From Straminergon stramineum (taxonomy: Eukaryota > Streptophyta > Bryopsida > Hypnales > Calliergonaceae): a stretch of 64,000 nucleotides of DNA. Where the stretch lies: positions 15,629,001 to 15,693,000 of the forward strand of contig OY987272.1 of NCBI GenBank assembly GCA_963920665.1. Reading direction: 5' to 3'. Under the pieces are notes generated by a model. That model was not told the origin of the DNA, did not search any database, and worked only from the letters and a program-made list of their open reading frames with translations. The translations under genes were made by a program, and so were the position numbers. Position 1 is the first letter of the stretch, and the number at the start of each line of letters is the position of its first letter. This document shows positions 19,235-52,426 of the stretch, piece by piece.

Positions 19235-21404
19235 ATGTCCAGTGAGGAAGAAATTAGTGTCGGCGAAGTGGAGATGGTGTCTCCAACGGATCCAGGAAGC
19301 AGCGCCAAGGGTTTCAAGTACACCAGGGATGAGATGTTTGCAATTTACTGGGCCATGGGGGACAGCTATTACAATGGCGTCGCGGATGTGTGGGCTGTGT
19401 TGGAGCCCTTGAGTCAGGAGCTTTATGAGATGGACGTGGATCACGGAACGCAGAAACCAAGGCACAAAACGATCGACAGGCGACAACGGGGGCGGAAGGC
19501 GACAACAACGGCGAACGGTCGATCGAATAACAATAGTGGCTCTTCCGAAGGAAATTCTTACGAGGAGGAGTTGCTGCTGGAATTAGGGTTGGAGCTGCCG
19601 AGTCAGTCTCCATCATCAGAGGGCGAGGTTTACGAGGACGACAGCGAAGAAGAGGTCGAGAGCTTCCAGCCACTGGCGTTTGCGGTGGAAGGGGAACCGG
19701 ATTTCGAATCTGGAGAGCCTCAAGATGGATGGGAGTATTTGCGACGAGTCAAGTAAGGGTGCCCTTGTTCGGATACAATGCTTATCATTCTTGCATTGTA
19801 CTCTTTGCAAAATCAATTGTCTCGTTATTTTTTGTCTAAACTCGAATAATTTGGAATTGCAGAATCACATTCACTGGAATTTTGCTGTCACGTTTTAGGG
19901 TTTGCAGCCTGTACCCTACACCCTAAGGAGTTATAGTTTTCTTTCATTGTCATGAGCATGATATTAAGTGCTGGATTGGAGTTTTACAAGTAGAGAAGTT
20001 TTTCTGGAGTCGGGTACTTGACCTGGGGTTTGCTGTGAACAATAGGTGGGAGTTTAAACGCTGTCCGAAGGTTGTCGTTGCCAATGTCGATCCTAAAAAG
20101 TTTGCTGAACAGACCCCGTATATGCCGGCTATAGCTTCGGTGGCAGCTTGCTCTCCTGATCTGCTCCCTTCGAAAGAGTGGGAAGCAGAGTTTCTAGCGG
20201 ACTTCTCAAATCTGCGTATGGTAAGCTCATGATCATCAGGTACACAGAGCAATGATATTTTCTGTCTGGTATCTAGTCTGAAAATGTTTCATTTGTCTCT
20301 TGCTTTGATTTAGTTTTTTCCCTGCTTGTCCGGATGGTCCTTGTGTGTTTGTATTCTTAAGATTCACGGGTTTTGTTGTGATGCAGAAATATGCAGAACC
20401 AATAGCAGAGGAGAGGAAATTTGATGGGCCTTTGCCATCAATTCATAATCAGGTCGGATGGGAGACTTTCTGCTTTGGAAAGTCGACCAGCCTAGTTGAG
20501 GAGGAAACTGTAGACAATTCTGAGAGCACAGGTGAATTGATGGAGGAAGCCAACATGTCCACTGAAGAGCAGCCGAAGCGCGTGGATAAAGTAATACTTG
20601 AAGGTGTGATGGACAACCCCTTACTTCCTAATCTGGACTCTGTAACTGATTTCCCGGCCTTGAATGCAACTTCATCAGACGACGAGCTTCGTTTTAGTCA
20701 TCAAGCCGCTTCAAAACCACGAAAGCACTCAACAGAGGCGTCACCTATGTTAATAAAAGCGCTAGTTAAAAACGCACCGAAGGACGATGTGAAGCGGAAA
20801 CCCATTGATCTAAAAGGGCCCCATTCTCCCTTACTTGGTATTTTGATGCGATTGGATGAAGTGAAACGTGCAGCTCTTCTGCGATACCACATTTCTTGGC
20901 TGGAGAGGGTGGATGGCCTACCTGAAGGGCGGGCTCAGTGGCTATTTGCTCTCTCTGCCGTGGTTGATAAGCCTCTAGATGCCCAGACAATGGCAGCATA
21001 CAGGACACTTTTGAGAAGGTGCGCTTGTAACGGTGCATTGTTTGATTGTCATTCCATGCTTCTTTCTCTAAGTGAAGTCATCTCAATCTGAGATTATTGT
21101 GGTAGTTTTGAGTAGTGGTAGATTGAGTGTACATGTGGAATGTCACTCATCGTTTCAGAAGTATCAGCTCATGCAGCCTTTTTTCCATTTTATTTACATC
21201 TTTGTCAAGCTGCGTTTCATCTGTGATTTTTACTGGTTTCATTTTCATGTAGGGAGATTCTAACTAGTGCTAGTTCATTTTCCCAGGTGTGCGTCCTTGA
21301 GGGCAAGCAAAACATCAGCGGAGAACGTAGAGTTATGCAGGTTGAACATGCTCATCGCAATTGCTGGGCGCTACTTTGGTCAAGCTGAGGATGCGCTGAG
21401 CTGA
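19235..21404 (+). CDS. GEMIN2: Gemin2 (SMN-complex/snRNP assembly factor)
   Basis: Four exons give a 480-aa frame: 19235-19752, 20046-20220, 20387-21018 and 21287-21404, with GT-AG borders and matching phases. The start at 19235 (MSSEEEISVGE) is chosen; the frame stays open upstream to 19016. The family core is seen as GWEYLRRVKWEFKRCP across the first splice, then EQTPYMPAIAS and PSKEWEAEFLADFSNLRM, and a C-terminal helical region LLRYHISWLERVDGLPEGRA, LLRRCASLRASKTSAENVEL, GRYFGQAEDALS. Gemin2 holds the Sm protein pentamer during spliceosomal snRNP assembly. The plant form has a long acidic, serine-rich N-terminal extension (about residues 80-155 here) and a low-conservation linker in exon 3. 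Confidence 0.9.
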
Positions 21405-21974
21405 CTACCGACTTCGGATGCTGAAACATTGCAGACATGTCAAAGTTCCACTTCTGGTGCGACCGGTTTTCAGGAGCTTCCTAGAATAGTGTCTAAATGT
21501 TTACGGAGTACGGACCCTGTTTGATACGGAGGCAACTTCTATTTTGGACCTTCACTGGACGGACACATTAGCATGGTAATCTAAGAGGAATTCGTCATCC
21601 AGGTGATTACACATATACTGTTTCTTGCAGCTGTTAGCATCAGTGATTATATTCCAAAGAACATGTAATTTTCTCACATTAATATAAACAACGTTACAAT
21701 GTACCCTATCAGTAGTAGACAGACGATATTATCCTGTTACAGTTTCACTGCATTTTTTTCGTAAGATTCTGAGAATAAGGACACCTGGTTTTAGGTTAGC
21801 CGTTGCTTGTTGTGATGCCGAAGTCGAAACATGACGCGCAAGTCATAAATATAAAACCTTCGATAGGAGGGTGATAATACAGTATCTCGAGTATAACTGT
21901 ATTCTGAATTGTCATTTGGTCATCCGGTTGACTGCATTGCGGATGTTCGAGTGCATCTTCTGAATCAGGATGTT
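21405..21974. other. 3' region of GEMIN2 and spacer to the tRNA gene
   Basis: Probable 3' UTR of GEMIN2 followed by spacer. AATATAAA near 21680 is a possible polyadenylation word. No other gene is visible. Confidence 0.5.
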
Positions 21975-22054
21975 GTTCATATGGCCGAGTTGGTCTAAGG
22001 CGCCAGATTAAGGTTCTGGTCCGAAAGGGCGTGGGTTCGAATCCCACTGTGAAC
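21975..22054 (+). tRNA. tRNA-Leu (anticodon AAG)
   Basis: The 80-nt segment folds as a type II tRNA. The acceptor stem pairs GTTCATA with TGTGAAC (one G-T pair). The A box is TGGCCGAGTTGGTCTAAGG. The anticodon stem is CCAGA/TCTGG with loop TTAAGGT, giving anticodon AAG. A short variable arm (TCCGAAAGGGC) is followed by a T arm GTGGG-TTCGAAT-CCCAC containing the B box. CCA is not encoded, as expected in the nucleus. A T-run near 22077-22083 can end Pol III transcription. There is no intron. Confidence 0.96.
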
Positions 22055-22183
22055 ATCGCTGACGCCCACTCTTTTACTTTTTTCAACTTAAAATGAACAT
22101 CGCTTGACGCCCACCCTTTTACTTTTTCCAACTCAAAATGAACATCGCTGACGCCCATATATTTCCTTCTTTGAACTCAAAAG
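22051..22183. repeat. Three tandem units starting inside the tRNA 3' end
   Basis: Units at 22051-22094, 22095-22139 and 22140-22183 begin GAACATCGCTGACGCCCA (the middle one with one extra T) and continue with a T-rich tail and AACTCAAAAT. The first GAAC belongs to the tRNA acceptor strand, so the tRNA 3' border and its terminator have been copied twice downstream. Confidence 0.9.
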
Positions 22184-22847
22184 TATCACCTTAGTTTGTT
22201 TTTCGTGTCAAAACTATCATCTTTGTAATATTTTCACCTCAAATACCAATTCTATTTTGTAATTGAGTGCAACCTCATGTCATTGTATAGAACATCTGTC
22301 TCCTCTCTCTCTCAAATCTGCTCCTCTCTACCAGCACAGCAGAGAACCTCCTCAGATCGAATTCTGCTACAATCTGCACACAGACTTGGTGGGAGAATAT
22401 TCGTGCTTTCACCGTGGCCACTTGGCCAAGGTATCGCAATGCGCGTCGGTCGCTGAACTTTGATTGCTGGGGACTGAAAAAGATGCCCGAACAACACCGA
22501 GTCTGGATTCTTCTGTTGGAAGCATTTTCATTGCAGGGTTTTAGGGTTTTAGGGTTTAGGGCAACCCCTTGACACTCTTGAACTGAATTGGCATCGTGAC
22601 AAGTGCCATCTACACTTTCCTACCCGCTAACTTGCACATTGCATTAGGGTTTCAGGGAGTGCTGCGATGAAATTCATGTGTTCACGGTGGTCACAATTTG
22701 CGTGAGTTGCCAACCTTTTTGGTGTTTTTTTGAGAGAAAGAGATGCCGAAACATCACCAAGTGTGGACTCTCCTGTTGGAAGCATTTTCCTTCCAGATTT
22801 AGGGTTAGGATTTAGGGTTCTTCTGGATTGGCATCGTCATACTAGCC
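22184..22847 (+). promoter_or_regulatory. TRM61 promoter/leader region with a duplicated block and telo-boxes
   Basis: Two related blocks, about 22400-22610 and 22670-22847, share a CACGGTGG-like word, an ATG-initiated short frame (22483 and 22743), GTTGGAAGCATTTTC and ATTGGCATCGT. Each also carries tandem TTTAGGG telo-boxes (22536-22561 and 22798-22819). Telo-boxes are common in promoters of plant genes for translation, which fits a tRNA-modifying enzyme. The transcription start is not determined. Confidence 0.5.
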
Positions 22848-23879
22848 ATGGCAATGCTAGCGGTTGCCCCCCAGCAGCGCCCGGAGACCGGCCGCGTGAT
22901 CTGCGAAGGCGACGTCGTCATCGTCTACGAGCGTCACGACCGCCTTAAGGCCGTCACAGTCGTCCGCAACGGGGAGCTTCAGAACCGTTTCGGCGTCTTC
23001 CCCTACAATGACTGGGTCGGGAAGCCTTTCGGCAGCCAAGTGGTGGGCAAAAATGGCGCCGGCTTCGTCTACCTCTTGGCTCCCACCCCTGAGCTTTGGA
23101 CCCTCGCCTTGCCTCACAGAACGCAAATCCTGTACATCGCCGACATCAGCTTCGTGGTTTCCTTTCTGGAGCTTCGGCCTGGGAGCGTCGTGTTGGAATC
23201 AGGAACAGGCAGTGGCTCCCTGACGCACTCTCTGGCCCGTGCAGTCTCCCCCACGGGACATGTCCACACGTTCGATTTCCATGAGCAGCGGGCGAACGCC
23301 GCAAGGGAGGATTTCGTCCGCAACGGCGTCGCCGATGTCGTCACCGTGAAGGTGCGCGACATCCAAGGCGAGGGGTTCCCGGAAGAGTTTGCGAATTGCG
23401 TGGACGGCGTGTTTCTCGACTTGCCGCAGCCTTGGCTGGCCATTCCTTCGGTCGTGAGGTCGCTGCGGAGTGATGGTCTAGTTTGCTCGTTCTCGCCCTG
23501 CATTGAGCAAGTGCAAAGGACGTGCGAGGGGTTGAGTAAAGAGCAGTTTGCGGATATTCGCACGTTTGAGGTGCTGCTGCGGTCGTATGAGGTGCGCCAT
23601 GAGAATCTTAGTACCAGTTTTCAGTGTAGTGAACAGACGTCAGGACTAAACCCTAAACAGCGCCAGGACTCGATGGAGTCGCCCCCTGCCAAGCGGCAGA
23701 GAGCAGAGGGTGGAATTGACGGAGGAGACACGAATGGAGCTTCGAATCCGAATTTGAGTCGCGAAGAGGGGAGCAAGAAGACGGAGAGACAGTCACGGGC
23801 TGTGATTGCGAGACCGTACCCGGAAACCAAAGGGCATACTGGGTATCTTACGTTTGCGAGGCAAGCCACACACATGTAG
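22848..23879 (+). CDS. TRM61: tRNA (adenine-N1)-methyltransferase catalytic subunit (TRM61/TRMT61A)
   Basis: A single-exon 343-aa frame. The beta-barrel N-terminal part is followed by GKPFGSQVV, PTPELWTLALPHRTQILY, the SAM-binding motif ESGTGSGS (residues 117-124), HTFDFHEQRA, the motif IV region DLPQPW (191-196), CSFSPCIEQVQRTC and the C-terminal RPYPETKGHTGYLTFAR. These match eukaryotic Trm61, which with Trm6 makes m1A58 in the T loop of tRNAs, including initiator tRNA-Met, in the nucleus. A lysine/serine-rich insert (about residues 262-322) separates the core from the last strand. The gene is GC-rich and intronless, unlike its AT-rich multi-exon neighbours. Start at MAMLAVAPQQ; MLAVAPQQ is an alternative. 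Confidence 0.95.
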   Translation: MAMLAVAPQQRPETGRVICEGDVVIVYERHDRLKAVTVVRNGELQNRFGVFPYNDWVGKPFGSQVVGKNGAGFVYLLAPTPELWTLALPHRTQILYIADISFVVSFLELRPGSVVLESGTGSGSLTHSLARAVSPTGHVHTFDFHEQRANAAREDFVRNGVADVVTVKVRDIQGEGFPEEFANCVDGVFLDLPQPWLAIPSVVRSLRSDGLVCSFSPCIEQVQRTCEGLSKEQFADIRTFEVLLRSYEVRHENLSTSFQCSEQTSGLNPKQRQDSMESPPAKRQRAEGGIDGGDTNGASNPNLSREEGSKKTERQSRAVIARPYPETKGHTGYLTFARQATHM

Positions 23880-26928: not shown

Positions 26929-26940
26929 GCCTTCTCTATC
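26929..26940. repeat. Left target-site duplication of the 13.7-kb transposon
   Basis: GCCTTCTCTATC lies directly outside the left terminal inverted repeat. The same 12 bases in the same orientation stand directly outside the right end (40647-40658). Confidence 0.75.
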
Positions 26941-27012
26941 AATGACGCTAGTATGCGAGCTTGGAGCCGTGAGCCTATGAGCTGTGAGCGTAGAGTTTGT
27001 GAGCCTAGAGCC
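26941..27012 (+). repeat. Left terminal inverted repeat of the transposon
   Basis: GCTAGTATGCGAGCTTGG is followed by repeated GTGAGC/ATGAGC words up to about 27012. It matches the inverted sequence at 40588-40646. Confidence 0.8.
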
Positions 27013-27594
27013 CACAAAACCTCTTTTTTTTAGTTTTTTTGCCACCCTTTTTTTCACCTTTTTTTCCAAAAAATAGAGGAAAACATCCTATTTATAGTAA
27101 TTATTATGACCTAAGACCGTGTCCCCTAAAACCGTGGATTGTGGAATGAGTCATTTTTTATCCTTTTGAAATTGCTTACTACTATTGGAAAAGACCTTGG
27201 AACTTAGGTGAAAAGTTTCACCACTTGGTTCAATGATTACAATGTGAAATATGCTGGACAGTGTGAGTTTTGTAGGTAGATGTCATTTGGACACAATTCC
27301 ATTGGGTTTTTTTGTCTACCTAATTTGAATACATAGGATTTAGGGTTCCGAATATCCCATAACTAATGGGATTTCCATGAGCAATAGTGTATGTGCACAT
27401 GTGTAGGATGAGTAGACAATCTGAAGGTTTGGATGAGATGATGTCCACAAGCCATTGTGGATTTGTGGTAGACATTTCACTGAAATCTTCAGATTATTTT
27501 CTTTACATAATTTTCTATTTTGAAATAGTTTTTTTGTGATGATTGAAATTTACTACCAAATGTTGACATCCTCAAAAGAAATTGTATTAATTGG

Positions 27595-28015
27595 CCCCAG
27601 AAATTGGTGGAAGAAAAAGAAGATGGGGAAGGAAAAAAATGGGAAAATAAAATGAAATGGGTGGTGACCAAAAAATGGGAAAAGGAAAAACAAATGGGTA
27701 TAGGGAAAACCAAAAGGGAAAAGGGAAGAAACAAATGAGGAAAGGGAAGAAACAAATGGGGAAAGGGAAAAAATGGGGAAAGAGAAAGAAATGGTAGAAG
27801 GAAAAAAATGGGGAAAGAGAAAAAAATGGGAGAAGAAAAAAAATGGGGAAAGGGAAAAAAATGGATTAAAGAAGAAAATAATGGTGGAAGGAAGAATTTG
27901 GAGTAAAGGAAAACCAACAAGAATGTATAATGGAAAACCCCCAAAATAAGAAGCGGAAATGAAGGGAAAAACAATGGAATTAAGAAGACTATGAGGAAGT
28001 TAAAAAAATGGGAAA
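27595..28015. repeat. Purine-rich imperfect tandem repeats in the transposon's left subterminal region
   Basis: About 420 bp of GGGAAA, AAAAATGG and AAGAAACAAATGGGG units, almost pure purine on the plus strand. The long phenylalanine/proline-rich frame on the minus strand is a low-complexity artefact. Confidence 0.85.
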
Positions 28016-28258
28016 ACACTAGGGCAAAGGGGGAAGACCGAATTATGTATTCATATATGCCTTACTAAAATAGGGATTACGGTGTTATATTTCAATCATT
28101 TATATGAACTAACTACAAAATAATAGACCAATGAGACATGCTTTTCTATTTCATGAATGCATTCAAATTTTCAATTCCATACACTCCAAATCATTTCAAT
28201 TATAATATATATGAATGAATACAATCCAAGTGAAGTACATCGATAAATGAGTTCATGC

Positions 28259-31200
28259 CTACTCGGGAACTGTGATAATTCCTATTCGAACTAAAAGTAG
28301 CTTCAACTCGTTGAAGCTATAACTTGGTGCATGGATGAATTTGTCATCATGTAGGTCCATCTTACAAAAGTAGCGGTATAAGTAGTATAAGTGCTTGCAA
28401 TTCACATATTGATGACGATCTCCAGTAGCCGAGACAACCATGTTCACAAAGTCGGGGCATGTGCACACGGGAAACATACCCACTGTAATTTGATAAACAT
28501 TTTTGTTATGGTCTACCTCTGTCTCCAACAACACAATTGCACCGAGGCCTGGAAAGGGAAGTAATGTGACTCCAAGGATTTGTCCTTTAACATTACCAGG
28601 GCTTTCCCATTTGTTTCGTTGTTCTATAGATGGTGCATTTGCAATTCGTTGAATGGTTCGATTATTCCTAACCGTTGGGTACGCATCTACATTCGTGGGT
28701 GGCTTACTGTCATATACAACACTTTCAAAAATCTTGGACATGTTGAACAGGCGACGTGGCGATAGTATAGGACGTTCTTGGAGACGGAAGCCTGTATGTT
28801 GTAGTAGCAAGGTCTCCTCTCGATTGAGATTGGTCCCAATTAGAACCGGCCAAACTTCTAGTACCTCTGGCCAATCAATGACCCACTTCCTTTTTGTACC
28901 TTTCACACATCTTTCTATGTCATCCCAGCAGAACCAGAAGTCCGCCACTACCTCTCGTTTACTCCCATAATCTTCTTTCCTCTCGTGGTAGGTGGGAGCT
29001 GGTGATCCCTTTCATCCCCTTGCAATTTTGGCGGTGTACTTGATGTTGGACCCACGTTGTTGAGCTTGACATTTTGCGTTTGATTTGTGGTTGATTCTTG
29101 CTATGTGCCATTTCGATGTGTCACAATCGCTTTCAAATGCAATAGTGACATGTTGAGAAGGGTTCACCACATATTGTTTTTCTAAATCCTGCATGACCTG
29201 TGTAGAAGCCGTGGTGGATCTCGTGCGAACATGAGGCTGAGAAAAATTAACTTTATCAGGTCAATGTGAGTCTCCAGCATTGCCAATAGGTATGTCCAAC
29301 TTCCTCTTTGTGCTTCCAAAAATTTCTTCTCCTTCTAGATGCGGTACTCGAGTTCCAATCCTAACGGCTCTAGGCAGTGTGTTTAAGGCCTCAGCCATCT
29401 TCTTGGGATCTCCACTTCGTCTTGTAGCTCTCAACTTCAACTCCCCCTTTAAAGGACCAAACCTAGATGTGTAGCCTCTCAAGTATGCACGGTAGTTTGT
29501 CATTTGCATCCAAGCTTGGATACTGTCGTCACAAATGGCATCAAACAAATTGTTTTTTCGATTACCAGACATTTGAAGCCACTTGTTGTGAACTGTTTCT
29601 GATAGATTGCACGAAGGCATGTTTGCCATTTCCTCCAAGCTCAAATCCTTTAAATCCATCCACAACAACACTTCAATTACTACTTGCAGGGACATATTTC
29701 AAGTCTTTTAGTACGCTTGAACTGTTTTGTTGACTAAGGGTGTAATCTACTGAAGATGGACAGACGAAGACATTTCACCACTATATAATGAATGCATTAC
29801 TACACTAGAAATGAACACTTGAAGAATTGGATTCTTCACTGTCAACAATACATGATCACTTTCTAGAGTTGGGGCCAAACAATTACTCTTTTTAGAGGAC
29901 AGTACTCCAAAAAGGGATACTTGTACACCCCTTGAACACATCAGTCGGATCCGACTGATGTTCCGGTTGAATGTTGAGGTACTCCCATTTTGGGGTCCCA
30001 ACTCCATGTTCCTCAGATTTTTATGAAATTGAAAAAAGTGGATGACTTTCTCAAATCCTCTATTGATAATGACACATATAATCTATCACAGACCACAATT
30101 TGCAAGCAACAAAATGATTATATAAAATTAAATACAAATAGATACTTACCATTTGCATGAAGCCTCCCCATTGATGGTACCGAAAATGCCAGGATGCCAG
30201 CCAGTGGTCTAAGTGATGAAGTGATTCTTCATTGGTAGCTCCAGATGACAACCACCATGATCGAATCATTAGATACCGCGTCTCTGCCTCCTCCGTAGTT
30301 TTGGGATCTTTGTACTGTTTACACAATGCATTGTATTGTTGTTGGAACGCTACCTTTATGTGTTTCTGTGTGTGCTTCTAAAGTGAAGTAGTCCAATGCA
30401 ACAAACAAGTCCTTTCACGGTTCTCCATTTTCTCCTCAGCAGAACCACTACCGTAGACGATGCAAACCGCATTCCAATTAGCCATTGCATTGTCTGCCAT
30501 GAATCCCTTGAAGTTTGGATGGTGAACACCATTTTTTAACATGACATCATTTAAGCACCTCCAGAATTTCACTTGGATCTCAGTATCTTTAGATTGCATA
30601 TCGCAGGTTGAAATGGTCATCACATTTTTGTATTGAGGATCATACACGTGGCAAGCCATCATGGTCTACTCCTTCATGCGCTTGACGTGGTCAAACATCA
30701 TCCACACATTTTGAAGATCACCTCCCGATTGCATTCGCCTCACTAGATCAACACCACTTCCAGGTCCTTCAGTGAACATTTTGAAAACGTACACCTTCTC
30801 TTTGCCTTGGCCCGAAAATACGTTGTGATGGACGAATTCGAACTTTGATTCTTTCTTCATAGTCATGATGTTGTCGATGACAGCTCCTCGGTTGTTAGAG
30901 AGAAATGAAGAGATCAGATTCCTAATATTTGGACTACTCAAATATTGGAATCGGTCCATGACCTCCTCTAGTTCCTCCCCCTTCAACATTCCCTTTTCTC
31001 CCTCTCCTTTGTGAAATAGATAATTGGTAAGGAAATCTTTGCTAGCAGAGAGCGCGATAGCGGAATTCGTGGCCGTTGGTGTTTTGGCCACTTGTTCTGC
31101 AATGAGTCCACATATTTTCTCTGTGGAATCTCTGTACATGCCTTTCGCAACAAGGTGAGTATGATCTCTGAAGTGAATTGCAGCCCTACTCATATTCGGA

Positions 31201-32324
31201 TTATCACTATAGGAGTAGTATACCCTAGCATTGCATGTTTTCAAGCATGAAGGGGTCATTTTGCACACCTTACAGACTAGAGTAGAATCTTTGGGCGGAT
31301 TGGCCCCTACAGCAAACGGAAAGATTGTATAGCCACTCCACTCTGTTTCGTTCCTTTTCGAAGCCCTCTTCAAATAATCACACTCAGGATTTTGACAAGA
31401 CAAATGCCCAGCACAGTAGGACTTACGAAATTTGAGATTGTCAGAGTTGTTGATGTTTATTGTCACCAACTTGCACCACGGGTGTCCGTCGTATCGCTTG
31501 TCCATTCCTTCTAAGTTCTTGGCCGCCGAGGAAGATGAAGAGGAGTGACACGGAGGCAACTCAAAGATGTCATCGCCATTAAAAGCTGGAGGCAAGAATT
31601 CCACGCGGTGATGCTTGACGGCATTCAAATTAGTTGCAGACAATTCATTCTGCGAGTGATGCATGGTGGCGGGTCTCCTCAAGCTTTCCATGATACTATC
31701 TCTCTCAGCTGGACTTGGGTGCAAAGGAGGACGTGAGAACAATGAGTGCGTTAGAGTATTGGACGGGGTACTATAGACTAAGTTGACATGAGTTGGTCCT
31801 TCCCATGGAATTTTGACAAAGCGTAGTTGGTGGCAGGGCCTTAAATCCGGAGACTCTCCTTCCGATTCAGACGACACTTCTATGATAGGATCTAGTTTCT
31901 CTACTTTCACTGTATAAAGTATTGTAGATTGGGGCGGGACCGTCCCAACTTCTTGAGGAGAACTAGGTGAAATGGTATGTGTGACATACGCCATATCTAT
32001 TGTCGATGCATCGGATTGGCGGCTAAGAATCTCTGTAGACGCAGCAAGTATAGATAGAGGAAATCCATAGGCCCTATAGTTTCCAGAAGAGAGGTACCAA
32101 CAATGCCCTTATTCTTCCAAGAGCTTTATTACAGGGATGGATTCCTGCAACTTACCTAATTCCGACTTCCTCTCTTCTTTGACATAGATGGAAGACTCTA
32201 CAAACTTGAAACGAACGTGTAGCAAGTGACTCATAACCCTGGCAAATCCTTCGTTGTCTATAGGAAACACTAGGGGAACCTCATGACCGTCTACTCGTAT
32301 GCAAGCTATGAGAATACAATGGGC
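28259..32324 (-). pseudogene. Mutator-like (MULE) transposase with SWIM zinc finger, broken by four stops
   Basis: Exons recognised are 32324-32156, 32032-30150 (phases match) and a last exon from about 29700 to the stop at 28259. A middle exon near 29990 is likely but unclear. After an N-terminal segment (VDGHEVPLVFPIDNEGFAR) comes a cysteine/histidine DNA-binding-like region (CAGHLSCQNPECDYL, ARVYYSYSDNPNMSRAAIHF). A DDE-like core follows, with FDHVKRMK, YDPQYKNVMTISTCDM, GFMADNAMANWNAV and CLLHW. The C-terminus has MPSCNLSETVHNKW and the SWIM finger (28391-28466: CTC, later CKH). In-frame stops are TAG at 30668-30666 and 30380-30378, and TGA at 29263-29261 and 29014-29012. No frameshift is needed inside the two large exons. 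The initiation codon of the first exon is not visible; TGA stands just before its first readable codon. Confidence 0.8.
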
Positions 32325-34374
32325 TCAGTGGATGTAGGGATTGAATGGAAATGGTCCAAGTGATGGGCTTGCCAAGAAATGAACTTGGAAGACACTATTT
32401 TATAATGTCTAGTTCGGTGTCCAGCTATGAAAGAGGGTGATGGCAAAATTATGGACTCTCATTTAGAATAACAGTGTATGCACCACCACGTACGGCCTCT
32501 TCCATTGCGTACTCCTAGAATTTCAATAATGGCATACATGCGCCATTGTCGATGAGATTTCAATAGGATTAGTTTGGAAGGAATGTGTGGTTTTAGGAGT
32601 AATGATGCATTCCTCATTTGTTTGGAGGTTGAATTGATGAACACAACATCATCAAGAAATTGGATGTAGCATGAGTACATTCAAAATAAGGATGGCACCT
32701 TCATGGTAATTCCAAATGGCATGGTTGCCAATTTCAATGTAGGCATCTATCATAAATGCTTTGAAGTGTGTGAGGATGTAGAGTTGGCAACTCCCAACAA
32801 CCCACCCACATGAAGAGGATAGGATTGCCTTGAGTGGTATCCAATCCGTTCAGACGACACATTAAATAAGGCGGCACGGGACGATGTTTTGAAATTCAAA
32901 GTATGCATCTATAATTTTAATGTTTCAGTAGGCCGTTTTCACTTGCATTTCTACGGATGTTGGCTAGCATAGAAGTAATGGGCATTTTAGCATCCTGTAG
33001 CTATTCTAGTGTCTTCTGGTAGTTTCGCATTTGTAGAAGAGATTCAGTTGTTCCAAGTGATCTTGCATCCCCTCATGCACCTAGAAGACAATAGCACCTC
33101 AATCATCGTAGCAGAACAGACAAAAAAAACGAGGAAGCGTAGTTCCTTTCTTTTTTCATCTTCCAAAATACTTAGAAGGTCAAAGATGACTCGTGCCAAG
33201 AAAGTATTGTCGAAGACAAGCCACTCAACACCAAATGATCTTCGCAGAATACTAAGCTTTGGAGAAGTTAGTAGCGTTGTGGAGGAGGACGTCGGAGCGC
33301 AGAGCTTGGCAGTAGCGTGACAGGTGTCACGTGGTCCAAGGAGCACACAAAATGAAGCTGCTGACAACCTTACAATTGTTGACAATGTAAGCATCCATAG
33401 TTCATATTGCTTTTAGAGGAATCCTTTTCCATTCATTACTACATTTCAAAGTTTCTTCATTATCTCCTAGAAACTAGAGTACATTATTCTTTTCCAATAA
33501 GTGAATAGGATGCACAAATCAAACTTTTTCACCCTTAAAGTGGGAACCATGGTATTTAGGAGTGAAGAGCTATCCAACTTGTCTCACAGTTTGTTAGATT
33601 GAGTCACGTCCAACAGTTTCTAAGGGTATAGGTATCCTTTGCATGGTCACTTCGTAAGGGTTTAAGCATTTTTGGGATTGCTAATAAGGTCTCCCTTCAG
33701 TCGACCATTTCCCGGACTCTCGTAGTTTGAATTCCATCATCAAGAGCATTAGAATACTGATTCATTCATATGAGCTTTTGGATAGTTGTATCATAGAAAT
33801 AGTATGGCACAGTGAGTGAATGCGAGGCCGACGACTATTTGGAGAATTTTCAGATCTTCGGTACCTCTGAGATATCCGGGGTGGATTGACCCTCTTGCTC
33901 GTCCTCCACGGCTTAGTCCAGGGGTGCATTTAAAAAATAAGCAACCCTTTTTTGTGCTTCATTAGTTTATCTTCTCTACGTCGCCGAGCTAAATTTGGTC
34001 ATCCAAATGAAAGTATGAATTCAAAATTTGGGAAATTGGTCACATTTGCCGAAAAAGGAAGATTGGGTCAGGCCTCTGGAATGGGGACCACCGCGGGGAC
34101 CATCCATGCCGGTCCAACGAACTGAACAGCAACATGCGGAAAGTACTGGGGAATACTATTTTCGTCTCTCCAATATCCCGCCGACCGAAAATTCGGGAGC
34201 CTCTAGGGACGAATCTCTTGTTCACCTGATCCCTCGTAGATCTGTTTAGGAAACACCAAGCCCTCGCCCTAGGAATCACGATTAGAATGAAGTCTCCTCC
34301 CACTTTGCTCACGCTCTCCCTATTGAACTTGCACTTGAATCCGCATATTTCTTCAGCACTTGACACAAGAACTA
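32325..34374. promoter_or_regulatory. Central spacer between the divergent transposon genes
   Basis: About 2 kb separates the transposase start from the start of the plus-strand genes, so it must hold both promoters if they were expressed. The serine/lysine-rich frame at 33009-33320 has no domain I recognise. No core promoter element was identified with confidence. Confidence 0.4.
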
Positions 34375-35658
34375 ATGTCGACTGTCCAACGTGAGGAGCA
34401 GGCCGGTAAGATGAGGAGGACACGCAGTCAAGCACGTGACGGAGAGGACGAAACTAAAGAAGAGAATCCAACGAGGACACCGCAAAGGAAACGCGTCCAT
34501 GAGGTAATTCAGTCACCTTCAGTCACCTTCATACTTCAACCCCACTATGGATGCCTCGTTTAGTTTACTCTCACTCCTGGGTGACTTGGGCGCGGCGCGA
34601 CCTCCTCGTCACGGCCGTGGAGCAGGGCCTATGGCATGGGAGATGGGGCTGCCCCGATGGGAGCGAGCTTTTGAATTCATTGGTTCCACTGCGAGGCCTC
34701 ATCGCCACGAGCACTTGGAGCGCGAGGTCCGCGAGGGAGTCATCGCGGCATTCACAAGCCTATCAATGCGGGTCGGTGACGTGGAGATGCATGGTGAGGA
34801 CCCGTTTTCAGGGGTACCTTGAGCTTCGCCCGTGTCATCAGTTGGACCTGACTAGGCTCATCCCCGGTGCCCTTGCTACTACCCAAAATGGGACCCCACA
34901 GCGGATGTCTCGTTTTGATTACTCTCACTCCTGGGTGACTTGGGCTCGGTGCGACCTCCTCGTCACGGCTGTGACATGATTGAAGGGCACCCGCTGTTGG
35001 ATGCTGAATATTGGTTGTGTTGATTAGTAGGTCATGCGTCCGTAGAGAATGTTATAAGATGTCTAGTTGCTAGTTTTCATGTTCTTGTAGGGTTTTTTAT
35101 ATTGTATGGTGGTTATTAAATTATTGTTTATCCTTCTTCTGTAGTTGTTACATTGATTTCTTCTAGTATGTTTTTCAGGTGGAAGGAAGCAAACTCCTAT
35201 GCATTACTCCGTCATCCAATGATCCAATTGCACCTGAACAAGTCCAAGAGGTTTCTAGTCCTTCGAAACCAAAGACTTCCATTAATGAGGAAGAGGAGGT
35301 GTCAAGCGATTCTCAAGATGAAGAAGAGGAAGACCAAGACCTGGTAAGACTTGAGGGTCAAAAAAAGTCCACCAGCCCAACTTCTGACACCTTGGTGCTC
35401 TTGAAGCTTAGCCGGAACACCAATTGGCCAAGCCACCTCATTGCAGGCTACACTCATAAATGAAAAAGGCCTGAGTTTTCTTCTGAGAGCTCAGAGACCG
35501 AGTATAGTTCAGAACCACAAGTTTCCCTTTCGATTGTCAATCCAGAGTATGAGGACTTTTGTCAATGTGATGGTAGTGAGAGTGTGGATCGATTTGGTGA
35601 TGTGATCATTCTTCTCAGCTCTGACTCAGAGAGTGATGTGGAGATCATAGATGATTGA
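34375..35658 (+). pseudogene. Acidic transposon protein with SUMO-interaction-like tail, one internal stop
   Basis: Exon 1 is 34375-34503 (MSTVQREEQAGKMRRTRSQA..., ending KRVHE at a GT donor). Exon 2 begins at 35179 after TTTTTCAG, in phase. The frame is rich in Glu, Asp, Ser and Lys (NEEEEVSSDSQDEEEEDQD) and ends VIILLSSDSESDVEIIDD before TGA at 35656-35658. The hydrophobic patch followed by acidic and serine residues looks like a SUMO-interacting motif. One in-frame TGA (35461-35463) interrupts it, at a position where CGA (Arg) would fit. No catalytic domain is seen. It could be an accessory factor of the transposon, or the N-terminal part of the next gene if alternative splicing joins them. 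The product is otherwise unknown. Confidence 0.55.
34540..34976. repeat. GC-rich insert bounded by direct repeats of about 75 bp
   Basis: The block ACTCTCACTCCTGGGTGACT...GACCTCCTCGTCACGGC occurs at about 34545-34620 and again at about 34900-34976, bracketing some 280 bp of GC-rich sequence in the intron of the acidic-protein gene. Its composition differs sharply from the surrounding element, as in a captured gene fragment. The source is not recognised. Confidence 0.6.
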
Positions 35659-35880
35659 GTGTAACTCATTCTTTTGTATTTAGATACATTCTCTATCTAA
35701 TGTGGAGGCTACAATGTGCTTTTGGTAATGAACATTTCCCTTATCTTTCATTGTAGGTGTTGTTGGACCTTTGGTTTCAGTAAAGTGAAATTCTGTTGGT
35801 TTTCACATAGCCTTTGTGTTCTTCTTTTCATTCTCCCATTTAAATGTTCTTCATTCTCAGGTCCCGAATTGGCTTTGCAA

Positions 35881-38800
35881 ATGGATGTGTCGCCTATCAA
35901 TCAAACACAGGAAGACACATTACTAGAGACTCCAGGGACTGATGACACCATGCAACCTGAAATCGGCATAGAGGAAGAAGGACAATTCATGGAGGAGGAC
36001 GTGGTTGATGAGGACGAGAAGGAGTTGTTAGAAGATGACCTACGCCGGCTGCAAAAGGTAGACTCAGTTTCAACACTCAATGCTCTGAGAATGAAGCCAG
36101 AGAAAACCTTTCGACTTTCAATATCACTTTGCAGACTTGTCGCTATGCCAATGGTACGTCCCATGCTCTTGTGTGACGTACAATTGTTGGAGCGGGAATT
36201 TGCTTGTGGCTACTGGGATGGGGCAGCCGTCTTCTATGTATCCACTATGAATGAAGCCAGCGAGAGTGCGGTATTCACGACACAAGAGATGGCTGACTGG
36301 GATCCTATCTGGAAGCAGAAGAACGACACCTTCGAGGAGTATGTGGATTCTGAGCCGGCGTTGAAGTTTCTCAAGAATATGAAGTTCTTTGTTTGCAATG
36401 GAAACCATCGATGCATGGCTTGGATGAACGTCATCTCAAGGATGTATTCCATGAACCTTGATTGGCATTATGCAGTGGACTGCATAATATTGGACACGAA
36501 AGGGAAGACAGAACTTGTCATGCAGGTTATGCACAACATCAACAAGTGAGTACATGCTTCACATTTGGATTTTGAAATGAATGTTTTTTTGGAAGGGGGT
36601 TGTATAGTCGTGTCATTTTTTGATGGAATTCTAAAGGCATGGTCCATTCAAAATCATGTAGGTCTACAGAGGATTCCCATGTGAAGACAAACTTGGTACA
36701 TGCCTTGTATCGGGTTCAAAAGTATGGCCTTTTCTTGATGGAGAAGTTCAATGAAATGTTGCGACCATCAGAGAGGAAGAGATGTGTCTCCCAACCACAA
36801 AGGAAGACTTGGTACTCCATGCCAGCAGAGGTGTTCACCTCATTTGTCTTCAGGGTGAGATTGGAGTTAGGAAACTATTCCACTTCATTTCTGTGGTCCT
36901 CTAAGTTATGGAATTACTTGTTTTATTCAGTTTTTCAAATGTATTTGGATTTTGGTAGCACGAAATTGCTTTGGCAGCAAATGCAGTCCTCAGAAGATAC
37001 CACAAGACCACACCAATTGATGAGAAGTCCGTGGAAGGGGCCACTCACGCCATGAGGGTAGGGGCAAAGGACAAAAACGTGAAGCTCTATGTCAAGATGA
37101 TAAAGTTGTTGACAGTGGCCAATCCTGCTCATGGGGCTAGATTTCTTCAAGAGGTGAGTACACAAATTTGGAAAATTATGTCGCGTTTGTTTTCTCTTGG
37201 AGTTGGGACTAGAGTTTAAACATATGAGAACATTACTTTTTGTTGGCACAGGTGGAGAGGCATTGGAGCTCCAACGAAGTGCCAGAAATGACCTTGGAGA
37301 AATTGTAGATGGTAGCCACTTGCAACACCACGGCCGACCACAAAGTGAAGTTCTTGAAATGGTGGAACTCCTCACTTCCATCTCGAGAAGCGAGGAAGTT
37401 CCCTCCCAAGCCTGTCTCTGAAACACACCTCGGACCTTTCTTAAACAAGTGTGTTTGGTATGCCGGGGTAAGTACACTTGTATCAAAAGTAAATGCATTT
37501 CATGGAATGATGTATATTGCCCAATACCCGGAATTGTAATTGATTAGGACTCTTTCATCTCCTTCATTTATACTATGTTAGTCACACTGAATGATTGGTC
37601 CAGATCGAAGATGCAACAGTAGAGTACTTCGAGGGGGTGGTCAAACAGGACAACATCAAAATAGACATGATTGTCTCGCAACAACTAGAGACATTATAGG
37701 AATACGTGGAGGGATGGAGGAAGATTTGGGACCAAGGTTTTGGACCATACTTCAAAGGGGCAAATTACTTCAAGAAAGGGGACTCCTTCATGAATCACGA
37801 GGGGTCTAACTTGACAATTAGAAGGGTTCTTTTCATGTATGATTGTAGTTCGTTACAATTGAAGGACATGACATGCCTTCCAATATTGTAAAAGATGGCT
37901 CCATGTTGATATTGTGGTCGTACTGGTTCTCTTCCAAGGTTTTCAAATGCTCTCATAATTTGTATAGTTGAAGGATCTTCAGATTGCATTACGGTGGATG
38001 ACGAAGTGCTTCCACTCTTCTGATTTGCATCTACATTTGTCCACTTGACCTTAATGATTGTAAGTTCTTGCACTATAGATACTTCAAGTACGAGCTAGAG
38101 GCAAAGGGTGCAATCGACCGGAAGGAATTGCCTCCATTCTTGTCCACATGGCTCAATCGAAGCTCCATCGACTGCATATTCACGCCAAGCCAGATGAGAA
38201 CATTCACCACGGCTCATCTCAGTGGAAGAGCGTGGTATTTGGACTATGCATTGGCATTCACTCATCCGTTCGAGGTGGAGCTCCGGGCATCTTTGGATGG
38301 CAAAGGTGCCATTGATTTGGACGTGGACGAGTTCTCAGGCATGACGGACATGTAGAGGAGGAAGGTCATTGCAAAGAGGGATGCAAATGACAGAAAGAAG
38401 GAGGTGCGGGTCCAAGTTCTTTTCACCGCCAAGGAAAAGAGGGAAGCGGAGCGATTGGCCAAGTTGGTGGAGAAAGAAAAGGAAAAGGAAAAAGAGAAGG
38501 AAGAGAAGGCCAAGGCCAAAGGCAAGAAGAAGGTCAAAGCGGACAACCAAAATCCAACATCTTCCACAGTGGATCAAGGCTCTGAGATGCAAGCCAAATC
38601 TCACAGCGGAATCAAGAGGAAGGCCACTCTATCACAACTCATAGAAGATGTCATTACTCATGTCACACATGCGATAGTTCTTAATGAAGATGATTTAACC
38701 AACTCTGAGGATTTAATCCTCAACATCTCCATTCAAGACCTTGTGGACGACGTGGAGTCCAAGAAACCGAAATGCTACAAAGAAGTCTTGGCCTTTCTGA

Positions 38801-40050
38801 AGAAGGTAATGTTCTTAGAGTTTAAATTAAAAGTGCATTTCCATGTTCGAATTATCGTGAATGTAGGATATGCTCATCATTTGTTTTTTGACCTTCTTCA
38901 TAATGGCAGTTGTCAGGGGGAAAGCCTCGCATGTTCTATGGTGTGCCAAACGCTAGGCCGGGGGTGGATGTCGTGTTTTTTGACTGCCTAGAAAACTTGC
39001 TTGTGCCGGGGCTATCTTCTCCGCCACGAGAGGTGTCGGAATGGAACGAAGATTTGGAAGATGAGGCCCTCCAATCTGCATTCAGTTTCGCCTTGAAGCA
39101 CCTGTAGGACCATGGATGCATCATACTGTTTCACTCATGGAGTGCCAAAGCAAAGTCCGACATCGTTGGATTGTGTGAGACGTATCAGATGGTCAAGAAA
39201 AAGGAGTGGATGGGCATGAACCGCATGCACTTGACCTCGGCTATAGACAATTCCAAAACGGTAAATTCCATTGGACCTTTGTAGCATTCACAACCACTTC
39301 AGAGGGCATTATGTTCCTTGCATTCCTCATGATTATATACCTCTTTCGGATGATTGCAGACGCAGAAATTTGGAATTACACTTGGAATCACGTAGAAATT
39401 TGTAGTGAAGGACTTAGGCGCGAAAGGGGAGTGCAATTTCTCATTCAGACGCATACCAACGATGAAGAAAGCTAGTGTAGACATTGCACGAGACGACATG
39501 TTGATGAACTACACCCATCCAGATGACATGGCAATGAACGGTGGAAAGCCATGGCGGGGTGCTCGGAAGAAAGACCCACGATTCTTCCAAATCCTATTGG
39601 AAGCTACGAGCGTCGAAGGCGATTTTGTGTTGGATTGTAGTGCATCCACAGGTTAGGGTTGAACTTTTTCATTTGTTGTATTCCAAGCCATTACTTATGG
39701 TCGAAGTTGTTGAAATAATTATTTTTTTCTCTTGCCTTCAGGTGCATCGATTACTACTTGCCGTGGAATAGGCCGCCACATTGTGGCTTTGGAGGAGAAC
39801 AAGGACATTTTCGATGCCATCCTCACCCCAATGAAAAATTCCACTCCGACCGTGGTGGTGACACAACCACAGACAATTGCTTTGGTTTCACAAGACCCAG
39901 ACGATATGCTCGTCATACCTCGAAAATTCACTTAGAAGGGAAAATTCAGTAAGTAAGTTGGCACTTTCTAAATTCTGTCTTCATTTGGTGATTTCCAAAT
40001 TATCACCCTCTTACATGGAATCATATTGGGTTGCAGTCATTGAGGATTGA
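35881..40050 (+). pseudogene. ParB-like domain plus DNA N4/N6-methyltransferase-like protein, broken by TAG stops
   Basis: Exons in matching phase are 35881-36545, 36662-36854, 36959-37153, 37252-37467, 37604 to about 37800, about 38079-38805, 38910-39260, 39360-39651, 39742-39948 and 40037-40050. After an acidic N-terminus, the first exon has a ParB/sulfiredoxin-like fold ending FFVCNGNHRCMAW (GNHR at 36400-36411) and YAVDCIILD. The middle has a long Lys/Glu coiled stretch (38430-38530). The C-terminal exons resemble a beta-class DNA methyltransferase: PGVDVVFFDCLENL where motif IV is expected, HGCIILFHSW, then FVLDCSASTGASITTC across a splice and GIGRHIVALEENKDIF (motif I and following). 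A classic DPPY/SPPY and FxGxG are not seen, so activity is doubtful. In-frame TAG codons lie at 37306, 37697, 38353, 39105, 39393 and 39933 (the last may be the natural end). Confidence 0.7.
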
Positions 40051-40298
40051 TGTCTGCACCAGCAAAGTTGAAGAAACAAAGTGTTCTCATCACTCCAGAG
40101 AAGCCTTTCGACCTTCCAATTTATGCTCAACAAATGGCTAAGGCCTTTGCGTATTTTGGTTGCTCTAAACCAAAACGCCGTAAAGACACTTACACTTTGA
40201 ATGTCTTACAATTTATAGATGGGTCTGCGTCTGAGGGTACAGAGTCTTCAAACTCATCCAAGACTTTTGATTCTGCGATCGAGTCTGCAAAGACCTAG
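40050..40298 (+). CDS. Small hypothetical protein at the transposon's right end
   Basis: An 82-aa frame from ATG 40050, MSAPAKLKKQSVLITPEKPF, with lysine-rich and serine-rich ends. It overlaps the last base of the stop of the preceding gene and ends about 350 bp before the transposon end. No domain is recognised. It may be an alternative last exon of the methyltransferase gene rather than a separate gene. Confidence 0.35.
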   Translation: MSAPAKLKKQSVLITPEKPFDLPIYAQQMAKAFAYFGCSKPKRRKDTYTLNVLQFIDGSASEGTESSNSSKTFDSAIESAKT

Positions 40299-40587
40299 AC
40301 TCACGAGATTGACATATTTCATGAGTCATGCTATTATGTATTGATTTCTATAATGATTGGATTTGTGTGTTTTATGGCTATATATTGCATGTTTGTTATT
40401 TTACTTTACATTTATCATTTGCAGGATTGGACCATATTGGACTAAATCTAGTTGTTTCTTCAAAAAGTGAACTAAAAGTTAAAAGTACGTTATATTTCAT
40501 AAAAATGACCCTTCTTTCAGAGAAATATAGGGTTTTCAAAATCCACAGTCATAGGTCCTTTCCAATTATTTTCTAGAAAAAAATTCC

Positions 40588-40646
40588 CGCTCCTACGCTC
40601 ACAAGCTCACAAGCTCGCCGCTCCAAGCTCGCATGCTAGCAACCCT
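40588..40646 (-). repeat. Right terminal inverted repeat of the transposon
   Basis: Read inward on the minus strand it begins AGGGTTGCTAGCATGCGAGC, then GTGAGC-type words. It is in exact register with the left end. Confidence 0.8.
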
Positions 40647-40658
40647 GCCTTCTCTATC
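40647..40658. repeat. Right target-site duplication of the 13.7-kb transposon
   Basis: GCCTTCTCTATC, identical to 26929-26940 and in the same orientation. Confidence 0.75.
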
Positions 40659-49850: not shown

Positions 49851-50264
49851 TCACAAAACTGTCACTCTTGCATTTTTGATGTCTTCTAAATAATTCTTGA
49901 GACATTGTATTCTTGATTTCAAGTTTGATGTATTAAGTTTCACTACATGGTCTTCAATCTCTGTCTTTTCTGTTTTACTTGCTTTTTCAGCCATCTTCTT
50001 GAATTCCCTAACTTTATCTTGGCAATTTGTAAGGTGTTCTTCTGGTTCCCATGAAGCATGGTCAAGTGGATATCCCGTCCATAGCACAAGATATTGAGTT
50101 TCCAATTTGTCAGTATCCTTGTCAACAACAACTTCTCGTACATCCAATATATATTCCACTTCCCATTCATCGTTTTCTCGATCATATACGTTGTCAACAT
50201 TAAATCCATATGGAGTTTTCTCTTTTGAACTTGGATGTGGCGCAACCCAAAATGTTCGTGCCAT
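49851..50264 (-). CDS. Single-exon chromodomain protein, 137 aa
   Basis: An intact frame from ATG 50264. Residues about 33-95 form a chromodomain: EWEVEYILDVREV, then TQYLVLWTGYPLDHASWEPE and EEHLTNCQDKVREF, followed by a Lys/Glu-rich helix. Chromodomains read methylated histone tails. The aromatic-cage residues are plausible (the W/Y positions at both ends). The closest common source is the integrase tail of Ty3/gypsy chromoviruses, but no integrase, polymerase or LTR surrounds it and the frame is unbroken, unlike the nearby mobile-element genes. A stop lies upstream of the start. It could be a domesticated chromodomain or a small leftover. Expression is unknown. Confidence 0.7.
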   Translation of the reverse strand: MARTFWVAPHPSSKEKTPYGFNVDNVYDRENDEWEVEYILDVREVVVDKDTDKLETQYLVLWTGYPLDHASWEPEEHLTNCQDKVREFKKMAEKASKTEKTEIEDHVVKLNTSNLKSRIQCLKNYLEDIKNARVTVL

Positions 50265-52426
50265 TTTTGATAAATTTGTGTGGATGATCTTTCCAATACC
50301 TATAAAATTGATCTACCAGTAGGAAATCCAAAACCAAAGAACTATATAATGCATATGATTTGTATGATGCTTGGTTATACTCAATAGTAAGTCCAAGAGG
50401 TGTATTTATAATCATTTGATCTTTTACTTTAAGTTAATCTCAACATGTGGGACCATCACACACTCAAAGTAAAAGAATCTCAAAAGTAAATTTCAACTAT
50501 TAAAAAGTAAAAGAATTTTTAAGACAAAAGGAAGAAATCTAAGAATTAGAAAACATTTCAATATTCAAAGAAAAGTAAAGTAAAAAGTAAAAAAAGGTAA
50601 AAGTAATTACAAAATTTAGAATTTGAATCTTACAAACATCCCCAAAGGCCCCTTCTCCATTATATCACTCATTTTGACCAAGTGAATGCAGGTCCTGACT
50701 GACTCACCCACTCACTGCTCATCAGTGCTCAGTTTGCCAGGTTTGTAAATTTGCAGTGGCTGTTGTCTGTTGGCGAATACATTCAAAAGTATCTCATGTA
50801 AAATAGTATGGTTTATTCATACACAATGAAATGAGTCAACTGTTCATTAATTTCCAATTTTCAAAAAATAAAAAATAGACTATGTTAGTTAAAATACCTC
50901 CATCAGACGCCACATAACTTTCACACATTATAAAAAAAGAGGAGTCAGGAAATTTGTCTCCTTAAACTACTTCAGTTGAGTTGGTGCCACCTCTTTAAAA
51001 TCACCCAAAAAACACTCTTCATGCCAGTCTATGTCTGTCTGTGTCTGTCCCTCAGTGCATTACCTGTGAATTATTTTACTTTCTTTCTCCATCCATGACA
51101 CTCCATCCCTGGCAGTCAAATAAACATCCACATATTTCATCCAACCCCGAATTTCATTCATCCACAGCCTGACCAACCTCGTACACCTACTGGCAGCAGT
51201 TGGTACCTCAGGAGCCCAATAATAGCAACTCCCTCAGGTGCCGCAGTAATACAAGGAACTGGTTTTCATCTGTGTCGTGACTGTCGTCCTCGCTAACTTA
51301 TCTTCGCTTCTAAACTTACATTAGGTTTCGCATTGGGCTTCACACTGGGCTTCGCATTGGGCTTCCTCCAAATTTGGCTGACAGAACTTTCGAAGTCAGT
51401 CGAGTTTAGTGCAGAATCTGGCGGATTTGTTGTGTGCAATTTGGCTTTGGTCTCTTCGCTCCTGGTATGATTGCATTGGAGCTTTTTTCCAGTTTTCACG
51501 CTGTCTTGGGGGAAAATTGGAGGGCTTTATACTACATGTGTAACAAATCCGTCGTTGCTGCATGAGAGAATCCATTCCTTTTTGCAACTGCAGCTTTTGG
51601 CGTCAGGACTGAACCTCCAGTAGGACTCCCCACTCCTGTTGCGTACAGAAGCCTAGTCGCCAGCTCATACCACTGTTTGTGCTCAGTAGTTTGGGGCCTG
51701 CACGTCGAGGGAATTGATGAGTTCGTCGTCATTACTCGAGCAATATTTTTTTCGGGCTTGTGTGTCCGGGGGTGAGTGAGTAGTAGTCCGGGGTGTCCTC
51801 CTTGATGTGGTAGTACTGGAGCTTCTTTTGCATGCCGAGGTTTTCGTGGGTTGTAGGGTTTGGAAATTAACACAGGCATTGACTTCTCTTAGGAGGATTG
51901 CTGCATGCAAGCTAGAGAGGGTTGGGAGAGGCGGATATGATAGTTTTCAATATATTGTTGGATTAAAGGTTTGATCCGAGAGTGGAGAGGTACTGGCTGG
52001 TGATCGGAAGGTCTATTTCCAGCTTGTGAGCTCGATCGGTCTGTTCTTCTCGGTCCTACGTTGTTGACGGTGAAGGTGTCAGTGGGGGTGCGGAGAGGGA
52101 AAAGAAACCGAGAACGATATATTGGTATTGGTGTATTGGCGCACACATATTGTGTAGTGGTGTGGTGCCTGGCGCGCGCGCGCGCGCGTGGGGAGCAACA
52201 AATGATGCAGTAGCTGTGGGGGATTCAAGAACTTAAGAACGAGCTGCTGATAAATAGTTGCATATTGGCTGTCGAGTGGCGTAGTACGGTGCGCTTGGTT
52301 GTGGGTAGGAAGAAACGATGCAGGGTTAATTGCTGGGGTTTAAGGCAGCCAGCCGGACTTTGGTGGTTGCGATGCATTCTGCTTGGTGAATTGGAGCTCG
52401 GTGAGGGAACTTAACCCACCACAAAG
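50265..52426. other. Intergenic region and upstream leader of the xylosyltransferase gene
   Basis: No gene is accepted here. From about 51200 the GC content rises towards the coding exon, consistent with a promoter and long 5' UTR, possibly with a leader intron. A CG dinucleotide run lies at 52172-52188. Confidence 0.45.
52172..52188. repeat. CG dinucleotide run
   Basis: Eight GC/CG units in the upstream region of the xylosyltransferase gene. Confidence 0.95.

Follow-up and report, generated by a model that had tools for sequence, protein, structure and literature searches.

A Mutator-type transposon family of the moss Straminergon stramineum with a divergent, methyltransferase-like cargo gene

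Results

The window analysed here, a 64,000-nucleotide stretch of the genome of the moss Straminergon stramineum (assembly GCA_963920665.1, contig OY987272.1, positions 15,629,001 to 15,693,000), contains a non-functional Mutator-type transposon of 13,708 bp (26940..40647; copy A), in which a transposase on the minus strand and a cargo gene with putative ParB-like and methyltransferase-like parts on the plus strand (35881-40298) are arranged divergently. The element was delimited by comparison of copies together with searches for its left and right ends. Its terminal inverted repeats (26940..26983, plus strand; 40604..40647, minus strand) are 86% complementary over 37 nt (26947-26983 against 40604-40640), and a 21-mer of the left end is present within the window at both element ends only (0.00 expected by chance). 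These observations bear out the inverted ends described in an earlier note on this DNA, and its layout of a transposase and a divergent methyltransferase-like gene enclosed between shared ends also holds. The window copy begins with C at 26940 (5'-CAATGACGCTAG; several copies read 5'-CAACGACGCTAGC), the base before AA/AG being C in 12 of 13 left ends inspected, and finishes at 40647, where the opposite strand reads 5'-CAGGGTTGCTAGC; the right ends of copies close with AACCCTG or AACCCCG. Other copies fix 26940 and 40647 as the outermost bases of the element, so the target-site duplication is 10 bp long (CCTTCTCTAT; 26930..26939 on the left and 40648..40657 on the right), and the 12-bp direct repeat reported previously is this duplication with one further matching base on each side. 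Directly inside the left end lie A/G-rich repeats of about 17-18 and 35 bp (27580-27930), and repeats with a period of 35-54 bp were called there in seven of eight elements; they could represent subterminal transposase sites or simple-repeat drift.

The transposase is encoded by two exons. The 5' exon (30100..32309, minus strand; 3' boundary approximate) specifies an N-terminal zinc-type DNA-binding domain, WRKY-like by model, and an RNase H DDE core with D267, D333 and CxxH (numbered in a 465-aa piece of copy B), the CxxH following the second D as in the IS256-related DDE transposases of Mutator elements. The 3' exon (28259..29698, minus strand), open for 479 codons in copy B, carries an N-x-x-E motif and a CxC...CxH SWIM-like finger, both recognized by eye; the E of the former, a candidate third catalytic residue, lies near the exon start in NLSETVHNKW. 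Stops are present in the window-copy transposase, and its proposed start codon (32309-32307) is ATA, against ATG in five other full copies. The ends, the duplication and the DDE/IS256 fold support the classification of the element as Mutator-type.

The cargo model comprises ten exons on the plus strand which, in the window copy, join across nine GT-AG introns in phase into 3,396 nt of coding sequence (1,131 codons plus stop). Exon 1 (35881..36545) encodes the putative ParB-like domain with an FFVC[D/N]GNHR motif and is followed by exons 2 (36662..36854), 3 (36959..37153), 4 (37252..37467) and 5 (37604..37887), by exon 6 with a lysine/glutamate-rich stretch (38079..38805), by exon 7 with the methyltransferase-like domain and its altered motif IV (38910..39260), by exon 8 with motif X and motif I (LDCSASTG; 39360..39651), by exon 9, in which the motif I region continues (39742..39952), and by exon 10 with the stop codon (40037..40298). 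A frameshift in exon 2 was considered and ruled out, as homolog P0043 has one continuous frame that matches that of the window exon.

All methyltransferase searches used one 3' cargo protein, exon 7 of copy B spliced to exons 8-9 of copy C. The six PHROG matches listed are all methyltransferase families (best 6.9e-5), Pfam N6_N4_Mtase (PF01555) matches at 0.0034, and phage proteins account for 155 records at E <= 1, eight of which cover at least 80%; among the 20 phage matches listed, 15 are annotated as methylase or methyltransferase, four are unannotated and one is hypothetical. The region has homology to motifs I and X, with motif IV preceding motif I, the arrangement that defines PF01555. 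Judged by these comparisons, the 3' part of the cargo is homologous to N6/N4 methyltransferases. When BLASTP sets it against the methylase of Enterococcus phage 9184, VDVVFFDCPENLL is aligned to VDMVLTDPPYGIL and DLVLDCSASTG to DTILDFTMGSG; motif IV is therefore at its expected place but non-canonical. Motif I is partly kept (LDCSASTG; LDCTASTG in element H, described below), and motif IV reads DCLEN in the window copy and DCPEN in B, C, D and H. The canonical form (D/N/S)PP(Y/F/W) occurs in none of seven copies from the same genome (A-F and H) and in none of the 20 outside homologs covering the motif (23 were found, three of which fall short); E stands at the fourth place in 20/20 of these homologs and C at the second in 18/20. 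Read from this pattern, the altered motif IV is a conserved change and not decay.

We found 170 homologs of exon 1, of which the best 120 were listed and 60 were aligned with the window exon; across these 60 and the window exon, G and N of FF(V/I)CDGNHR are invariant. The DGNHR-type motif presumably resembles the GxRR motif of ParB and the DGQHR motif of DndB. Among the 61 members, Pfam DndB matches one at 0.032 and NCBIfam DGQHR and DndB match one each at 0.018 and 0.022, all of them weak; the window exon itself has none of these matches, and unrelated families match at comparable strength, such as HTH_metalloreg with five members at 0.029. On this basis "ParB-like" is suggested as a lead for exon 1. 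Pattern-based scans of limited reach gave no relative of the exon in IMG/VR or GTDB contigs, which argues only against recent donation by bacteria or viruses, and tblastn of ParB homologs against phages and plasmids returned nothing better than E 0.3; a viral or prokaryotic origin was set aside, as no relative was found in the scans made. Among the best 120 homologs listed for each, the ParB-like exon and the transposase yield 35 and 65 distinct longest-contig sizes, respectively, of at least about 10 kb. Four sizes are common to both (31334, 239112, 422261 and 583271), where a rough model of independence predicts about 0.01, and a 4,688-bp contig size is common to a ParB match and a methyltransferase-exon match (P0003, P0124). 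These coincidences suggest that other sampled genomes carry the genes on shared contigs, not necessarily within one element.

The genome searched for copies comprises 326 Mb in 59 contigs, the window being C10:15629001-15693000. With the left end (460 bp) as query, 40 matches of 490 candidates were scored, at 81-100% identity, and with the right end (407 bp) 40 of 585, at 73-100%. Same-strand pairing of ends gave 18 pairs spanning 13,547-17,389 bp, none shorter, and a further ten at 20.7-90.3 kb, the 32.8-kb one of which contains the nested element H. Of these 18, seven (A-G) were read over their whole length, E and F having been picked for their size of about 13.7 kb and B, C and D being the complete ones among ten retrieved copies. 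Copies A-F align over their full length at 90.5-96.6% identity, and five of the six have matching duplications: that of A is perfect, as are those of C (C2:6663359-6677368; CATGACAATG), D (C6, about 18916883-18932600; ATTTTTAAAG) and F (C2:14752713-14766426; GTACATTACC), each 10 bp; E (C10:19593986-19607705) matches at 9/10 (GGCCT(T/C)CAAG), and B (C4:22031473-22045825) has none. Copy G (C5), a more distant relative, still shows cargo exons 6-10 and part of the 3' exon of the transposase. Among the retrieved copies, the ParB exon was also present in L009/L010 and in the outer copy of L021/L022/L037; in the other five (L011-L018, L023/L024) the matching stretch stops before the cargo, and these interrupted or truncated copies are uninformative either way.

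Element H (about C4:21892512-21909461) represents a second, diverged family; its ends are of the type described above, and its 10-bp duplication (TCGTGAGGCG) is perfect. It contains both transposase exons, an acidic exon and all ten cargo exons in unchanged order, the individual pieces having 56-86% protein identity, and its cargo exons, matched one by one, have a single stop in total. H is nested within a copy of the window's family (L037/L022, C4:21890001-21909900), so that, at least here, one family has inserted into the other. We looked among the copies read for transposase and methyltransferase genes residing in separate elements and saw no such case, both genes being present throughout in six of the seven end-to-end copies and in H, and G keeping the 3' parts of both; the copies and duplications likewise contradict an assignment of the two ends to unrelated insertions. 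Full-length copies with the same ends and 10-bp duplications, which the earlier note had proposed to look for, thus exist, but intact ones are wanting among A-F: the cargo model contains in-frame stops in all six (A 7, B 4, C 4, D 3, E 4, F 1) and splice-site changes in each of B-F, and therefore none of them has an intact cargo.

The ratio of nonsynonymous to synonymous substitution rates (dN/dS) over cargo exons 1-10, acidic exon excluded, is 0.11-0.12 for H against each of A-F, and over exons 6-10 it is 0.24-0.27 for G against A-F; exons 7 and 8 are under strong purifying selection. For the transposase pieces, the values against A-F are 0.15-0.19 (G) and 0.05-0.10 (H, 1 of 12 values not computable). 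As far as these substitution rates tell, the cargo has been kept by selection between diverged families. C>T/G>A changes make up 848 of the 1403 singleton differences among the six copies, with per-site rates of 0.33 in CG, 0.27 in CHG and 0.08 in CHH contexts, the bias that plant CG/CHG methylation is expected to leave behind. In the window copy, four of the seven cargo stops stand at positions coding for Q in other copies, as CAG-to-TAG decay would give.

The intergenic region (34249..34973) holds a tandem repeat array of about 343-354 bp in some copies, with 2.6 units in B, 6.6 in D and 1.9 in H (three of eight elements). The window copy has only an 81-nt pair at 354-bp spacing, and Tandem Repeats Finder called no array on the window alone. 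A conserved acidic open frame 5' of the cargo (35179..35658, plus strand), either a separate gene or an upstream exon, is interrupted here by TGA at 35461-35463. It is also found in H, with dN/dS of about 0.13-0.19 in five of six copies; in F the frame is shifted and the value is not computable.

Elsewhere in the window, host genes for SMN-interacting protein 1 (PF04938) and the tRNA methyltransferase GCD14 (PF08704) lie at 20309-23876 (plus strand), with a tRNA gene (21975-22055) between them. A glycosyltransferase family 34 gene (PF05637) is present as two copies of opposite orientation, at 52415-54362 (plus strand) and 62677-63360 (minus strand), which are very similar over the C-terminal open frame, the only part of the second seen before the window ends. 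A chromodomain open frame (49854-50312, minus strand; PF00385, 4.7e-16) probably marks a chromovirus-type retrotransposon remnant, of which it would be the integrase end.

Discussion

We consider it slightly better than even (probability about 0.52) that the element is a dead copy of a family of the Mutator-like element (MULE)/IS256 type whose cargo is a non-catalytic accessory or anti-silencing protein binding DNA or S-adenosylmethionine (SAM). Its complete form consists of two divergent units, the DDE transposase and the ten-exon cargo, with a repeat-bearing intergenic region in some copies. The transposase would act at the element ends. The cargo would bind the element's own DNA via its ParB-like part, perhaps first at the intergenic repeats and then beyond them, and the catalytically altered methyltransferase fold would serve as a DNA- or SAM-binding module. 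The protein could in this way keep host CG/CHG methylation off the element or help it to transpose, an effect that would be like that of VANC, the anti-silencing protein of VANDAL MULEs, and need not reflect relatedness. We favor an accessory or anti-silencing role because the catalytic motif has been lost while the fold and a replacement motif have been kept.

Several observations weigh against this interpretation. Profile searches lend hardly any support to the ParB assignment, and the structure model of the exon is poor (predicted local distance difference test score 53; best Foldseek E 4.0). The ParB label given in the earlier note is only suggested, by the DGNHR-type likeness and the very weak profile hits described above; the poor structure model found no match. 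The N6_N4_Mtase score of 17.8 bits is below the curated cut-off of 26.7, and phmmer against PDB places T-cell receptor chains on top (0.0025), which we take as chance matches, with methyltransferases only at E >= 1. A Pfam scan of the transposase pieces gave no MULE or SWIM match, and Transposase_mut matches one of 60 transposase members weakly, at 0.034; what was previously called a SWIM-finger transposase holds as a Mutator-type DDE transposase, but its finger is SWIM-like by eye and gave no Pfam match. Copy G has no recognizable 5' transposase exon or ParB exon, the array of about 350 bp is uncalled in five of eight elements, and dS exceeds 1, near saturation. Moreover, the presence of the cargo evidently did not prevent methylation of the copies at some time, though the copies may already have been dead then.

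It is possible, though we think it improbable, that the cargo is a transposition accessory that binds the ends, helps to choose the target or protects strands and plays no part in silencing, comparable to MuDR's second gene. Both ParB and methyltransferase folds bind DNA, and in diverged families the cargo and the transposase are conserved together within one element; this explanation leaves the repeat array and the CG/CHG decay unaccounted for, and the present data do not separate it from an anti-silencing function. More doubtful is the idea that this plant Mutator lineage has evolved a chromatin system of its own, in which a ParB-type clamp nucleates on the intergenic repeats and spreads and the repurposed fold, with its new conserved motif FDC(P/Q)ENLPVPG, is a steric block to host methyltransferases or supports a different, cysteine- or glutamate-based DNA reaction. 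A shade less likely again is that the cargo is a working amino-methyltransferase that writes N4-methylcytosine (4mC) or N6-methyladenine (6mA) on the element through its non-canonical motif IV. Homology to N6/N4 methyltransferases, purifying selection on exons 7 and 8 and the partly retained motif I would all suit such an enzyme. However, none of the 20 covering homologs has a canonical motif IV, and in N4CMT, a working eukaryotic 4mC enzyme, the change of SPPY to APPA abolished activity, according to the available part of PMC8885841; the addition of 4mC or 6mA proposed for the cargo in the earlier note thus finds no backing.

Two further explanations carry far less weight than a DNA- or SAM-binding accessory or anti-silencing protein. 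MULEs tend to take up host gene fragments (PMC6446971, as far as available), and the cargo might be a host or bacterial gene captured passively in the manner of Pack-MULEs. This is very improbable, since a whole ten-exon gene has been kept at the low dN/dS found between the families, values on which we reject passive capture, and the scans of IMG/VR and GTDB contigs also speak against it as far as a recent donor is concerned. That the element is a composite artefact, with the ends of unrelated insertions around unrelated genes, would agree with the lack of a matching duplication in copy B; in the face of 18 end pairs in one length class with none shorter, duplications in five of six copies and a collinear family H with a duplication of its own, we give this idea practically no credence, and the copies and duplications rule out a chance assembly.

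With MULE/IS256 elements, the element shares terminal inverted repeats, a 10-bp duplication within the 8-11 bp range given for MULEs in the available part of PMC6446971, a DDE core with CxxH and an IS256-like fold, a zinc domain, a SWIM-like finger seen by eye and a divergent second gene. It differs in its size of 13.5-17 kb, in having no Pfam MULE match and in its methyltransferase-like and ParB-like cargo. The table of MULE groups in PMC6446971 lists no such gene, the word "methyltransferase" having 0 occurrences in the part of that source available, and a literature search of limited coverage turned up no account of a plant MULE carrying this gene set, which is weak evidence of novelty; we rate the element as Mutator-type with a new class of cargo. 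The phage and bacterial ParB-methyltransferase fusions in the accessible part of PMC5512222 may likewise combine ParB-like and N6/N4 methyltransferase-like parts in one gene, whereas the cargo here is intron-rich, has 1,131 codons and an altered motif IV, and contig scans and tblastn to phages and plasmids found no close prokaryotic or viral relative of its ParB exon. N4CMT of bdelloids, going by the sections of PMC8885841 at hand, is also a member of a bacterial-type amino-methyltransferase family in a eukaryote, but it is a host gene with an intact SPPY that places 4mC at transposons, in contrast to a transposon-borne cargo from which that motif is absent.

Among transposons with genes for chromatin or DNA modification, MuDR families with SET histone methyltransferase genes exist in Phytophthora (available parts of PMC12730594 and PMC6446971). 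They too are MULEs with a gene of a chromatin-modifying enzyme family, although SET domains methylate histones and are unrelated in fold to N6/N4 DNA methyltransferases, and the host is an oomycete. The conserved altered active site of the moss cargo poses the question of whether it is a pseudo-enzyme turned anti-silencing factor or represents a new DNA-modifying chemistry, and the family is numerous enough for natural copies to allow comparative methylation tests. In VANDAL MULEs, VANC brings about a loss of methylation, and the motifs to which it binds accumulate in the form of noncoding tandem repeats (PMC5735166, in the part available); both systems may pair an element-encoded second gene with noncoding tandem repeats. 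A Pfam scan of cargo pieces, which could miss a domain split over exons, gave no match to DUF1985 or DUF287 of VANC. Fungal transposons carry TET/JBP genes, according to the available part of PMC12730594, and thus genes of DNA-modification enzyme families do ride on DNA transposons; those genes encode dioxygenases and are carried in fungi by transposons of other superfamilies, and here a methyltransferase-like gene is carried by a plant MULE. Transposon genes for anti-silencing or demethylation are known from fungi (TET/JBP) and from Arabidopsis VANDAL elements, and a methyltransferase-type gene maintained by selection in a plant MULE would be a further solution, reached independently.
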